Assembly: GCA_036365515.1 (NCBI GenBank)
Contig: CM070875.1
Span: 88,616,128-88,680,127, forward strand
Origin: Torymus aiolomorphi
Taxonomy: Eukaryota; Arthropoda; Insecta; Hymenoptera; Torymidae
Direction of reading: 5' to 3'
DNA length: 64,000 nt
The notes beneath the pieces were generated by a model. That model had not been told where the DNA came from. It saw nothing but the letters and a program-made list of their open reading frames with translations, and made no database searches. Positions 4,702 to 53,725 of the stretch are shown in pieces. Within the stretch, counting starts at the first letter, position 1, and each line of letters starts with the position of its first letter. The position numbers were made by a program, and so were the translations under genes.

Positions 4702-4837
4702 TTATCGGGGTTTATGTAGCCCAAGACTGTATATTAGTACCTACAGCCCAGAGTCCCCTATGGCAAGTGACTAAAGAAATAATGGGCCCTGGAGTTGTAG
4801 ACTCTAGGTCGGGCCACATAAACCTCTATATTTAGAA
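4702..4837 (-). mobile_element. Core-word element 1
   Basis: About 135 bp between two (TA)n tracts. Its terminal words pair as an inverted repeat: GGGTTTATGTAGCCC at the left and GGGCCACATAAACC at the right. It carries the constant core CTAAAGAAATAAT at 4771-4783, flanked by the pairable phrases CCCAGAGTC and AGACTCTAGG. Read in reverse complement it is nearly the same sequence as element 10 near 53600-53725, which shows this is a dispersed family. Confidence 0.75.
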
Positions 4838-4877
4838 ATATATATATATATATACATATATATATATATATATATAT

Positions 4878-5125
4878 TTTGTAAATTGGTACTTTTGAAG
4901 AGATGTGAACCTTTCGCTCAGAGTTCGGACAATGTAACTAAAGAAATAATGACCCTCAGGTTACCGACTCTGGGAAAACGGGAAAACGGAGTATAGATTT
5001 CTCCACAGAAGTCGCGATTCTTGCGTTGAGAAATTTGAGGAGTCTCTTCAAAATGCCGACATCTCTTCAAAAGTACCGATCTATACGTTGATATCTCTCC
5101 AAATATACCAATTCCCATAGTTATG
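4878..5125 (-). mobile_element. Core-word element 2
   Basis: Lies between (TA)n tracts. The core CTAAAGAAATAAT is at 4938-4950, followed by GACCCTCAGGTTACCGACTC. The locus-specific word GGTACTTTTGAAGAGAT at 4888-4904 returns exactly inverted at 5061-5077. Looser copies of the word lie at 5041-5057 and 5091-5109. Confidence 0.7.
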
Positions 5126-5283
5126 ATATATATATATATATATATATATGTGTATGTGTGTGTGTGTGTGTGTGTGTGTGTGTGTGTGTGTGTATGTGTG
5201 TGTGTGTGTGTGTGTGTGTGTGTGTGTGTGTGTGTGTGTGTGTGTGTGTGTGTGTGTGTGTGTGTGTGTGTGTGTGTGTGTGT
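5126..5283. repeat. (TA)n(TG)n compound microsatellite
   Basis: A short TA tract passes into about 65 TG units with two TA interruptions. Open frames here are translations of the dinucleotide and are not genes. Confidence 0.95.
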
Positions 5284-6018
5284 AAATGGGATATTTCAGG
5301 TAAAGTCAGCAACTCAAAATTTTAAAATCGCTCAAAACTCGTTTTCTTTTAGTTTTTTATGAAAAAAAAAAATGTTCCTCAAATTTTAGGTCGATATTTG
5401 CAAAAATAAAAGAGCTATGCAAGATTGAAAATTCAATTTTTTTGCAATTATTGGTTAAAATCCAAGTTTATTAATTTTTTAACTCAAAATCTTGAAACTT
5501 TTTGTATAGAACATTGATTGGCAAAAAGTTTGAATTTTTTCTGTAGAATGTTCCAGTATTTATTTTATGACCCTTTTTGAAAGTCTTTGATTGGCTGCTT
5601 CTTAGTATATCTTCATCAAAGGATATTGAGGCTGCTACCAAATATTTTTTATTCGACAAATTCTTTTTGTATTCTTTTTCGAAAATCCTTCAAAATGCTT
5701 TTTTGATCAATACTGGCCGAGCAAATGGAAAAAATTTACAATTTTTAAATATCAAGAAAAATCCATAATTTCAATTTTTGATAACATGATTAATGAAACT
5801 GAATATTATTTATACACCTTATTGCATGTACCGTACCACTGAATTTTGTTAGAGCATGAAATAGAACATGATAAATATCTATTTTCAATAATATTAGGTT
5901 TACACAATAAACGATACCTAATTATGAATAAAATTATGCGTCTGTTGCCTGATTTCATTTTCACAGCTTTATAGTAATTAACCTCTATAGCTTAATTTGT
6001 TATTAATTCATGATTAGG
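5284..6018 (+). mobile_element. Family A arm, interrupted by Copia copy 1
   Basis: Begins GGGATATTTCAGG followed by AACTCAAAATTTTAAAATCG. It shares the phrases TTGATAACATGATTAATG and ACTGAATTTTGTTAGAGCAT with the copies at 15258 and 16437. Its inner end has a ~20-bp inverted pair (CGATACCTAATTATGAAT near 5921 and ATTCATGATTAGGTATCG near 6006). Copia copy 1 inserted at the outer edge of that palindrome. Confidence 0.65.
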
Positions 6019-6023
6019 TATCG

Positions 6024-6266
6024 TGTTGAAAGTATGCGCGCTTCACGCGTGTGTGTGTATGTATGTGTGTGCGAGTATCTATGTATGTGAATAGAGGGAG
6101 CGCCCTCCCTTCCGCACTGCGTGCGGCTGTCTCCGCGAGCGCCACTTCTCCCTGAGCGCTGCACCCGAGCGGACGTGAGCAAGAGAGAGAGAAAGCCTTT
6201 GAATAAACTAAACGTAAAACTTAAACTGTGTGTGACTCTGGATTATGCACCTCATCCTCACCAACA
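6024..6266 (+). repeat. 5' LTR of Copia copy 1
   Basis: 243 bp starting TGTTG and ending CAACA. It contains a (GT)n stretch, a GC-rich centre with the phrase AGCGCCACTTCTCCCTGAGC, and GAATAAAC near 6201, a possible poly(A) signal. It matches the 3' LTR at 14903-15157 throughout. The main differences are the GT tract length and a short deletion near the 3' end. Confidence 0.93.
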
Positions 6267-6283
6267 GGTTATGGACCCAGAGC
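6267..6283 (+). promoter_or_regulatory. Primer-binding site, initiator tRNA-Met half type
   Basis: GGTTATGGACCCAGAGC directly follows the LTR. Drosophila copia uses an internal fragment of initiator tRNA-Met at a very similar site, from my knowledge of the family. The same string sits next to the LTR of copy 2, near 54675-54688 in reverse. Confidence 0.8.
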
Positions 6284-7498
6284 GCTCAGCTGCGCCGAGC
6301 CAGGAGGCCCAGGCGGCGGAAAAATCGAAAGGTATGAGAGTGATATAACCGGGTCGCAAAGAAAGGTTCTTTCTCTGTAAGAGACAAAACAATGACTGCT
6401 GCCGCGCCGTGCGTGGAGAGTCGCGTTCGGGAGAAGAAAACTGTTGAGAGTTAAAGAATTAGAATCGTGTCGAATGCGGCGAAAGTATACGTAAAGTTTG
6501 TCAAAAGGTTAAGTAAAAATGTCGGACGCGAGAAAATAAAAAGATCGGAAGTTATAGATAAAAAAAAGTAATAAATGTAGAGTAAGACTAATTCGGAAGC
6601 TAAAATTGAAATAACTAAACAGTCTAAGTTCGTGGAATCTCAAATCACGGTATATTGTTTGTATCGGCCGAGCGTGTTCGAACAAGAGTTTTCGGTTGTT
6701 TATACCGGTGACGGGAGGCGGACGCGTTTCTCGAAATCGGCACGTGCTGCGCGATGGGTTCTCGCCGGCATGTAAACACAGGCACGATCGCGATGGGAGG
6801 GAGCATGCGCGGTTGTGTCTGATCAACACGGCCGCGCACCGGCTCCCCGCGCGAACATCGGAGGGAGCGAGAGAGACAGAAACACCAGGCGCGCGAGCGT
6901 AAAGCGGCCGCGAGCCACAGCGGCAGGCGCGCAAGTGTATAGTGGCCGTGAGCCACAGCGGCAGGCGCGCGCAAGCGTAAGGGGGCCGTGAGCTAAAGCG
7001 ATGGGCGCGCACGAATGTACAGCGGCCGAGAGAGACGAAACGGCAGACGCGCGTGACTGTAACAGGCGACGACGCGAAAGACGTCGCGCGCGCACACTCA
7101 TATACACGTATGCCTTGCGCTAATGTAGACTTGCGCGAGACGCCGTGCGTCGCGGAAGTTGCAAACGGTGGGAGCGTGAAAATGTGGAAGCGTGCCGTAT
7201 GCGAACGAAAAAGCAAGATGGTGAACAGCGCGAACGATATATATATATATATATATATATATATATATATATATATATATATATATATATATATATATAT
7301 ATATATATATATATATATATATATATATATATATATATATATATATATATATATATATATACATACATATACATAAGCATGCATTGAAATACTCAAACCG
7401 AAAACTGACTGCGCAGTCTAAATAAATAATTTAAAACTAAACACGCACACAATTAAATGTTCTCAAACAATTTACCGATAATAATAAATATATGCATA
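6284..7498 (+). other. Copia copy 1 leader with minisatellite and (TA)n
   Basis: Untranslated leader before gag. At about 6885-7035 a ~37-bp GC-rich unit with the phrase GGCCGTGAGCCACAGCG repeats about four times; copy 2 has the equivalent array at 53765-53970. An uninterrupted (TA)n tract runs from 7237 to 7360, at the place where copy 2 carries four core-word elements. Open frames across this block read repeats and are not convincing. Confidence 0.75.
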
Positions 7499-52387: not shown

Positions 52388-52514
52388 TTAATTGTGTGCG
52401 TGTTTAGTTTTAGTTTATTTATTTAGACTGTGCAGTCAGTTTTCGGTTTAAGTATTTCGATGCATGCATATTTTTATACATGTATATACGTGTGTATGTG
52501 TGTATGTGTAATGC

Positions 52515-52734
52515 AGCTTTTGAGGATCTATGTCAGCACGGATTCGATATTTTGAGGATTTTGAGGACTTTTGAGGACATCCTCAAAATTCCTTCGGTAT
52601 GAAACGGTACTTTTGAGGATTTATATTAATACCTTCAACGCAGAGAGGGAGTTATTTCTTTAGCCAAGCATATACCAACTCTGGAGAAAAAAACTATAGA
52701 TCCTCAAAAGTACCGATTTCTGCAATGTGTGTAT
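52515..52734 (+). mobile_element. Core-word element 7
   Basis: Core GTTATTTCTTTAG at 52651-52663 (first base differs from the usual A). Words TTTTGAGGAT and TTTTGAGGAC repeat to the left. GGTACTTTTGAGGAT near 52610 pairs with ATCCTCAAAAGTACC near 52701. Sits at the edge of (TA)n in the Copia copy 2 leader. Confidence 0.68.
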
Positions 52735-52852
52735 ATATATATATATATATATATATATATATATATATATATATATATATATATATATATATATATATAT
52801 ATATATATATATATATATATATATATATATATATATATATATATATATATAT
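52735..52852. repeat. (TA)n microsatellite
   Basis: About 58 TA units between core-word elements 7 and 8. Confidence 0.97.
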
Positions 52853-53087
52853 TAGGCTAGTAAGTTTGAGGAGCTCAACCCCGGTCGGTCAGAGTGGCTA
52901 AAGAAATAATAACCCTCAGGTTACCGACTCTAGACAAATAGACTCTAGAAAACTGCTCAAACTTCCGCTCGGATGCTGAATATATAGATTGGAAGTTTGA
53001 GGAGGCTCCTCAAACTTCCCATAACCCTCAAACTTCCAAGCGGGTGCTGAATATAATCCTCAAACTTCCAGAATTTCATTTATATTA
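52853..53087 (-). mobile_element. Core-word element 8
   Basis: Core CTAAAGAAATAAT at 52898-52910, followed by AACCCTCAGGTTACCGACTC, almost the same as in element 2. The word AAGTTTGAGGAG appears at the left. Its inverse CCTCAAACTTCC is repeated three to four times at the right, including a perfect palindrome around GGAGGCTCC near 53005. Confidence 0.7.
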
Positions 53088-53197
53088 TATATATATATAT
53101 ATATATATATATATATATATATATATATATATATATATATATATATATATATATATATATATATATATATATATATATATATATATATATATATATG
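53088..53197. repeat. (TA)n microsatellite
   Basis: About 54 TA units between core-word elements 8 and 9. Confidence 0.97.
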
Positions 53198-53204
53198 TGT
53201 ATAT

Positions 53205-53440
53205 TTATCTCAAAGGTAACTTATGCGGACGCATCCTTAATGGGAACGGTACTTATGCGGACTTTCATCGACCTGTGCAGACATTTTTGAGTGTCTACAT
53301 AGAGAGGGAGTTATTTCTTTAGCCAAGCGTGACTTGTGCAGACACGGGTCTAATGGAAACGATACTTATGCCGACAACATACGTAAAGGGATCGGGACTT
53401 ATGCGGACGAGTCTACATATGTACCTATACATCTGTTTAT
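53205..53440 (+). mobile_element. Core-word element 9
   Basis: Core GTTATTTCTTTAG at 53310-53322, preceded by AGAGAGGGA as in elements 6 and 7. The word ACTTATGCGGAC and variants (ACCTGTGCAGAC, ACTTGTGCAGAC, ACTTATGCCGAC) occur at least six times, all in direct orientation on both sides of the core, unlike the inverted arrangement elsewhere. Confidence 0.65.
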
Positions 53441-53489
53441 ATATATATGTGTATATATAATATATATATATATATATATATATATATAT

Positions 53490-53725
53490 TATACATTTCT
53501 CGAAAGGGGTTCATAAAGCCCGTTTTTTTATATATAGAGATTCATCGAGCCCGATTTTGATTATGCAGCCCGAGTTTCATAATATTTCTAAATATAGGGG
53601 TTTATGCGGCCCGACCTAGAGTCTATAACCCCAGGGTCCATTATTTCTTTAGTCAATTGCCATAGGGAACTCTGGGCTGTAGGTACTAATATACAGTCTT
53701 GGGCTACATAAACCCCGATAATTGT
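53490..53725 (+). mobile_element. Core-word element 10
   Basis: Core ATTATTTCTTTAG at 53640-53652. The ends GGGGTTTATGCGGCCC (near 53595) and GGGCTACATAAACCCC (near 53701) are inverted. Extra word copies (GTTCATAAAGCCCG, ATTCATCGAGCCCG, ATTATGCAGCCCG) lie to the left. From about 53585 to 53722 it is the reverse-complement twin of element 1. Confidence 0.75.

Follow-up and report, generated by a model that had tools for sequence, protein, structure and literature searches.

We have found in the window (i.e., the whole stretch of 64,000 nucleotides that was analysed) ten short elements in which a constant core is surrounded by repeated words, alike within any one element but not across the element types. 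This pattern, already described in the initial annotation, is borne out by the comparison of the words, which were chosen by eye: their identity within elements was 11.3 versus 7.9 of 16 bases, a value reached by none of 20,000 permutations. The explanation that we favor, with moderate confidence, is that these elements are non-autonomous and Mutator-like, of the MuTAnT/SaTar kind, and that their binding sites have diversified as sets around a fixed core.

Structure of the elements

The exact 13-mer ATTATTTCTTTAG was found eight times in the window and the variant GTTATTTCTTTAG twice. These are the ten loci for which a common 13-mer, changed at the first base in two of them, had been claimed, and all were found where they had been located. 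The exact 13-mer would be expected only 0.02 times in the window (order-1 model, both strands). Over the whole genome (1.08 Gb) there were 12,541 exact copies of a 16-base core and a single one of the control. Viral contigs gave no matches to the core, and in prokaryote contigs 45 stretches had a single match each, which we have taken as chance. The constancy of the core is partly a matter of ascertainment, because most loci were picked by it. At locus L078, at least two elements combine the word layout with a different core, and among six layout matches that were not simple repeats and had no exact core, three had a core with one change, one was cut off by a TA tract and two had another core. 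As a separate observation, the end of TTATTTCTTTAG is formed by a pyrimidine tract with AG, by which the core might be taken for a 3' splice site; locus L078 has TTTTATTGTAG.

The words are variants of one site of ca. 16 bp at conserved positions. Five copies at fixed spacing (31–33, 18–20, and 40–43 bp), one of them inverted across the core, were detected by script in eight of the nine window elements tested, and in each of these eight the layout score was above all 200 shuffles (0/200 each). Applied to 79 core matches the same score failed in 30, and of the 49 that passed four had arms taken from a neighbor. A sixth copy forms a palindrome with the third, so that the usual set comprises this copy, four direct ones and one inverted across the core. 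The direct sites are located at about 0, 31–32, 51, and 92 bp and the inverted one at the far end; the leading lags, computed without reference to the words, were 19, 31/32, 41, 50, and 60–62. Each end of the element is occupied by one of the outermost sites, while W3 and W4 have an internal position. The words have a skeleton of three columns, two of T and one of A, kept in 96–98% of 48 words. The directly repeated pair W1–W2 co-varies most (13.0 vs. 7.6 of 16). The two end words share extra upstream sequence, and likewise the two inner words (0/2,000 permutations each).

The eight elements that passed the layout test are found on both strands. Those on the minus strand are E2 (4878..5125, core 4938–4950, word GGTACTTTTGAAGAGAT), E3 (15455..15805, core 15558–15570, word GCATTTTGAGGATTT), which has a long middle, and E9 (52852..53085, core 52898–52910, word GGAAGTTTGAGGA), in which the third spacing is 53. 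On the plus strand we found E4 (15926..16115, core 16051–16063, word GTTAGTTTTGnGGACA), with sites at 15927, 15958, 15977, 15990 (inverted), 16018, and 16089 (inverted); E5 (16140..16372, core 16281–16293, word GTTATTTCCGGGACG); E7 (17028..17262, core 17174–17186, word TTTATGGAGCCC), of the a2 type, with word sites at 17044, 17075, 17094, and 17134 and an inverted one at 17234; E8 (52489..52731, core 52651–52663, word CTTTTGAGGAT), whose left end is uncertain; and E10 (53490..53731, core 53640–53652, word GGGGTTTATnnnGCCC), of the a1 type. E1 (4701..4837, minus strand, core 4771–4783) is also of the a1 type; its ends were set by eye against the TA tracts, and it has lost the left array, so that of its words just the one adjoining the core and the far inverted one are left. 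The element that failed the layout test is E9b (53196..53437, plus strand, core 53310–53322, words ACTTATGCGGAC), of the h type, with direct words on both sides of the core. The same h-type layout was found in locus L057 and, as a 226-bp tandem, in locus L077.

Each locus had been described as having its own repeated word, mostly with an inverted copy. The words are indeed present and repeated, and the inverted copy across the core was found in nine of the ten elements (all except E9b). However, they are not specific to individual loci: a single word pair was found 1,204 times in the genome and, since words recur in dispersed copies, they mark subfamilies rather than loci. Subfamily lengths were nearly invariant, with constant tips in all cases: 209 bp in four of five a1 copies (210 in the other), 202 bp in all four a2 copies, 180 bp in all five d copies and 323 bp in both c copies. 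Words and core do not vary in step. With a2 arms, the core flank occurred in two versions, and the similarities of core flanks and words were uncorrelated, with a Mantel rho of −0.11 for eight window elements, 0.02 for 18 word clusters, and 0.06 (1,344 of 5,000) for the 16 clusters left after removing two that resemble damaged relatives of others. The members of the closest pair, E1 and E10, nevertheless resemble each other in the core (39 of 43 columns) as well as in the words (0.94).

Insertion in microsatellites and target duplications

The cores lie close to (TA)n. A perfect (TA)6+ tract was located within 242 bp to the right (plus strand) of the core in all ten window elements and within 157 bp to the left in nine, the left side of E8 being TG/TA-rich instead. 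Thus, nine of ten cores had tracts on both sides, versus 3.9% of window positions with (TA)6+ tracts within 300 bp on both sides. More widely, 36 of 57 core matches were flanked on both sides by (TA)5+ microsatellites (within 420/300 bp), and in 21 of the 27 pairs of neighboring cores less than 700 bp apart a (TA)4+ tract was found between them. None of the window elements interrupts another (judged by eye), i.e., they form non-nested modular arrays. The leaders of two copia copies show such a tract without and with elements. The leader of copy 1 contains an element-free (TA)n tract (7237..7375, unstranded), and its counterpart in copy 2 (52468..53770, unstranded) holds the non-nested series E8–E9–E9b–E10 with (TA)n between them, in a comparison where the flank aligned right up to the tract on one side only.

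A target duplication cannot show within (TA)n, as is the case for the window elements. Relatives with the same core located outside (TA)n, which have other tips and another layout, had exact 9-bp target duplications, within the 8–11 bp range of MULEs, in six of eight independent insertions (six of the 14 relative copies with both tips, the tips being defined from aligned copies). An automatic search around 66 exact cores gave a 9-base repeat beside inverted tips at 10 of them vs. four random centers, but this is not evidence by itself because the matches were mostly chance or tandem copies. In the two CGGCG-tipped relatives listed, 10 or 11 of 14 tip bases were alike in inverted orientation, as in terminal inverted repeats, while in the window types the inverted ends, located around W1 and W5, are no more than short and imperfect. 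The genome contains at least 150 matches to MULE domains (best E 5.9e-16), many of them in long open frames. Among the loci examined no long coding element with the word layout was found, and the six layout matches without an exact core were all short.

Origin of the matched words

The elements would be short DNA transposons, non-autonomous and most probably Mutator-like (MULE), in a genome resembling that of a hymenopteran. They would prefer (TA)n microsatellites as insertion sites and accumulate there next to one another. The repeated word would be recognized by a DNA-binding protein that a transposon encodes (the transposase or a helper). If every subfamily depends on a protein of distinct specificity, all sites within an element would have had to change jointly, and copying from one site to another, perhaps by gene conversion or template switching, may have contributed. 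The core, in turn, would be a separate cis element, read by a factor that did not change when the word changed. E9b, being outside the layout, argues against this reading. Going further, and only tentatively, the genome might hold a radiation of recognition codes (some 16 to 18 in a small sample, and probably more genome-wide). Each code would be repeated about six times per element in one fixed geometry and have a dedicated reader among the proteins encoded by the transposons, while the core of 13–16 bp would be a universal cis element, compatible with every code. Codes and core would then be separable modules, and the set would amount to a natural series of proteins and sites that are mutually orthogonal.

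The possibility suggested at the outset of a functional RNA whose stem co-varies while its loop is fixed appears highly improbable. The inverted word copy across the core would fit it, and so would the motifs flanking the core, AGAGT to the left in six of ten elements and ACTCT at the aligned place to the right in six (counted by eye in the alignment), both together in five. E9 and E9b also fold better than most shuffles (z of −1.9 and −2.0, with six and eight of 200 shuffles as good). However, the single-strand DNA folds of the other eight elements were within 0.8 sd of shuffles, the core alignment gave zero consensus pairs, compensatory changes backing one fold were not found, and an Rfam search of the window gave no match. 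A stem does not explain the co-variation, because direct copies co-vary just as strongly and the core lacks a conserved fold.

Three other readings were considered. It is unlikely, though conceivable, that the words are recognized by a VANC-like protein, encoded by a transposon and acting in anti-silencing or regulation rather than as the transposase, and that they diverge in a silencing arms race. In Arabidopsis VANDAL elements, the short motifs bound by VANC proteins accumulate, change in concert and are not the same in related elements (PMC5735166, in the text available), and W3 and W4 are here internal instead of terminal. However, the VANC motifs described in that text are tandem and variable in number, while here number and spacing are fixed and the outermost sites occupy both ends, as transposase sites do. 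We regard as rather doubtful that neutral or biased copying (gene conversion, template switch or slippage) has rewritten all word copies with no protein reader. The stretch of up to 29 nt that W2 and W4 have in common at 86% in E4 and in E9 points in this direction, together with the tandem 226-bp h-type copies and the uncoupling of core and words, but the common block stays near 16 bp with the same spacing across word types, and blind copying would not keep the T and A columns of the skeleton. Improbable too is an origin as rolling-circle or Helitron-like remnants, in which the core would be a nick site and the words Rep iterons. The logic of a constant core with virus-specific iterons in a kept arrangement is the same (PMC10653810, as far as its available text goes) and tandem copies exist in locus L077. 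Against it, there is no conserved stem-loop at the core, and the same-core relatives have inverted tips and 9-bp target duplications.

Comparison with known systems

When the protein of a transposon acquires a new specificity, all its sites must change jointly, a process that is difficult to follow since, as a rule, nothing but its beginning and outcome is visible. In the present genome numerous states of the same geometry coexist, and with more than 12,000 exact core copies and many MULE genes the question becomes testable by pairing proteins with words. The elements also offer a conserved core with a putative function. The literature searched yielded no family of insect elements in which a constant core is combined with matched arrays of words. 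The initial statement that no described family behaves in this way was, however, too strong. DINE-1/mini-me, also short, abundant and containing (TA)4, keeps a core of ca. 90 bp over 12 Drosophila species while its 13-bp sub-terminal repeats differ between species (PMC2374699, from the portion available). It differs in being Helitron-like, with TT insertion and another layout, and in that the variation is between species and not among many types in one genome. By their insertion sites, the elements appear to lie outside this family, since the window elements abut (TA)n and their relatives have 9-bp duplications. The origins of geminiviruses and nanoviruses are alike in logic, since there too an invariant core is combined with specific repeats whose arrangement is preserved, but in the accessible part of PMC10653810 they are viral replication origins with a stem-loop, and of such replication there is no sign here.

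Other features of the window elements recur in MuTAnT, SaTar, and VANC-bound elements, as judged from the available text of their descriptions. The VANDAL/VANC system involves related MULE-type elements with short, family-specific motifs that change together, but these are tandem, variable in number and read by an anti-silencing protein, and neither a fixed six-site layout nor a constant core is described in the portions available (PMC5735166; PMC10398659). MuTAnT of Medicago is mostly 200–300 bp long, lies in (TA)n, has 9-nt duplications outside (TA)n and includes a putative autonomous copy with a MULE transposase; it differs by its long fold-back terminal inverted repeats and its two subfamilies, and the text at hand describes no such word array or core (PMC4486113). 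SaTar, known from guayule, rice, sorghum, and citrus, is likewise non-autonomous, MULE-like and (TA)n-flanked, with non-nested arrays of different families joined by microsatellite and with target duplications in copies outside microsatellites. These duplications are of 10 bp and in plants, versus 9 bp and an insect-like genome here, and a constant core with family-specific word arrays does not appear in the part of the description available (PMC5907723). Microsatellite-stacked elements, which these sources describe in plants, are thus placed into an insect-like genome.

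The core and its flanks

The shared 13-mer was found at all ten places in the window where the initial annotation had located it, exact in eight cases and with G as the first base in two, while the chance expectation of the exact sequence in the window is 0.02. Ten elements, E1-E5, E7-E10 and E9b, were extracted around these sites, each oriented by its core. A (TA)6+ tract lies within 242 bp to the right of all ten cores and within 157 bp to the left of nine. Among 18 representatives the conserved stretch was limited to about -7 to +15 of the core, and positions -3 and -2 were free to vary. 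This constancy is partly ascertainment, because most loci were picked by the core. In the sample picked by tip (L101-L112), 11 of 12 loci carried the exact core with a constant offset, and seven of these represent one insertion multiplied together with its host repeat. Cores with one base changed exist in some elements, and two have another core. At locus L078, 4679 (+) and 5369 (-), the word layout is present with a different core, AGAGGGATGTTTTATTGTAGACA.

Layout and co-variation of the words

In eight of the ten window elements, a word of ~16 bp occupies four direct places (W1-W4) with spacings of 31–33, 18–20 and 40–43 bp (E9 has 53 bp as its third spacing), an inverted copy of the third word comes 12–17 bp after it, and one inverted word (W5) lies across the core from the direct ones. 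E1 has lost its left array and E9b has a different layout. Since the arrangement was first spotted by eye, a script test was added in which the identity of five sites was maximised under the spacing rule and compared with 200 dinucleotide shuffles per element (E1 excluded). Eight of nine elements outscored all of their shuffles; E9b failed (74/160, with 6 of 200 shuffles as high). A word-free lag scan, run without shuffle control, gave 19, 32, 41, 50, 60, 62, 52 and 31 as leading lags.

For the fine structure we used 17 word types, one more having been removed for a spurious far word. The ~16-bp word was the common block for all site pairs, although block values are inflated by the optimisation of frames per element and have the five-site script with its shuffles as their control. 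Extra likeness upstream of the word was found for W1-W5 and W2-W4 (0 of 2,000 permutations each); the remaining pairs free of W3 share less there (9 to 55 of 2,000), and those involving W3 had no clear upstream likeness (284 to 1,149 of 2,000).

The words co-vary. With words taken by eye from six sites in eight elements, mean identity was 11.3/16 within elements versus 7.9 between them, a value not equalled in 20,000 permutations in which elements were shuffled within word positions. The most co-varying pair was W1-W2 (13.0 versus 7.6), a direct pair that is unable to pair in RNA. Three columns, two with T and one with A, were kept in 96–98% of 48 words, most other columns being element-specific, which identifies the words as versions of a single site.

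Word subfamilies and their independence from the core

The assembly to which the window belongs comprises 1,084,570,280 bases and has five contigs between 157 and 267 Mb long; it contained 6,341 + 6,200 exact copies of ATTATTTCTTTAGTCA (control 1). Our sample consisted of 30 3-kb loci picked by ATTATTTCTTTAGTCA, 20 10-kb regions, five of ~0.9 kb and the window. The layout score was passed by 49 of its 79 core matches (at most one mismatch, duplicates removed), four of the 49 with arms borrowed from a neighbour. These elements formed 22 clusters, or 18 with 45 elements once simple-repeat-word clusters were dropped; two of the 18 resemble damaged relatives of others. The same words recurred at dispersed loci with constant length and tips, and TTTATGGAGCCC occurs twice at the W2-W3 distance in 1,204 genomic copies (control 0). 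The words are therefore not locus-specific, as had been proposed at the outset, and mark subfamilies instead. A further word type, TTTTGAATGCG, surrounds the same core at L095 (3401-3600) and L093 (1528-1722).

Likeness of the core did not predict likeness of the words among window elements (Mantel rho -0.11; 1,136 of 2,000 permutations as high), nor did that of core flanks among 18 clusters (rho 0.02; 2,047 of 5,000) or 16 clusters (rho 0.06; 1,344 of 5,000). E3 and E5 have 35 of 42 core-region columns in common, yet only 43% of word letters; E1 and E10, similar in both, run counter to this independence. Near-identical arms of type a2, i.e., the word-bearing parts beside the core, accompany two core-flank versions (L051, L073 and L099 versus L063, L100 and E7), indicating that arms and middle have been exchanged.

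Mobility and target sites

Two copia-type copies in opposite orientation (6023-15160 and about 46917-54928) were recognised by integrase domain and alignment; the integrase has named relatives from Trichogramma, Cotesia and Nasonia, plus isolated, more remote ones in other animals and in plants, most of its hits being unnamed. On this basis the genome is described as hymenopteran-like. One copy has an element-free (TA)n tract (7237-7375), while in the other the tract is filled (52468-53770) with E8, E9, E9b and E10, separated by (TA)n. The alignment of the two copies reaches the tract at one edge (91% over 143 bp); at the opposite edge a 77% alignment stops about 205 and 80 bp before it, and few like bases adjoin it. 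In the sampled DNA, 21 of 27 pairs of neighbouring cores <700 bp apart have a (TA)4+ tract between them; the other six include the double-core L047 and L098 and the h-type tandems of L077 (period 226, 97%). The L077 element (4375-5062) is a tandem of three such units.

Relatives outside (TA)n have the same core, the word TWTGTACGACAGAT and tips CGGCG...GGCCG, with 593 genomic copies of the tip (control 0). Among 15 copies inspected, 14 had both tips; in L109, both the right tip and the core were missing within 289 bp. An exact 9-bp duplication flanks six of them (L065, L098, L104, L110, L111 and L112). Seven copies with one common flank set and no duplication were counted as one insertion, and L047 had no target duplication at its element, so that the duplication is present in six of eight independent insertions.

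Other repeats in the window

An inverted repeat of 209 bp (15259-15467 and 16405-16613, 93% complementary) flanks the E3-E4-E5 array. It is part of a dispersed repeat (4393-4628, 5286-5895, 16422-17003, 17442-18059, 30805-31427) whose ends often adjoin (TA)n. An AT-rich satellite (291-bp unit, 97% alike) covers 18725-27206. Within one copia leader lies an element with 205-bp inverted ends (7496-9247, 96%), without which the other copy is continuous at 52346/52347; its frame 8352-8774, which we take to be mariner-like in look, had no Pfam match. A GC-rich 38-bp tandem repeat occupies both leaders (6886-7032 and 53773-53975). LTR-retrotransposon genes lie on the minus strand at 36304-41029, with reverse transcriptase, RNase H and an integrase zinc domain at 36304-38043.

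Possible origin of the elements

The fixed geometry, the ~16-bp footprint, the palindromic third site, the inverted far site and the subfamily-wide words suggest that the words would form an array of putative sites for a transposon-encoded protein. Alternatively, they may have been rewritten by copying, without selection. The invariance of the core may reflect a host factor, a step that all the transposon-encoded proteins share, or a signal for transcription or splicing.

PF10551 (the MULE domain) had at least 150 matches in the genome, with 150 of 338 candidates scored (best E 5.9e-16), many within long stop-free frames and others broken. As MULE was the sole transposase family profiled, this abundance by itself is weak evidence for a MULE source. 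A Mutator-like source is likely in view of these genes combined with the 9-bp duplications in relatives; target duplications of MULEs range from 8 to 11 bp (PMC5907723). The same kind of source applies to the MuTAnT and SaTar elements of plants (PMC4486113 and PMC5907723). What is unusual here is how many word types surround one core, and that core and words are separable.
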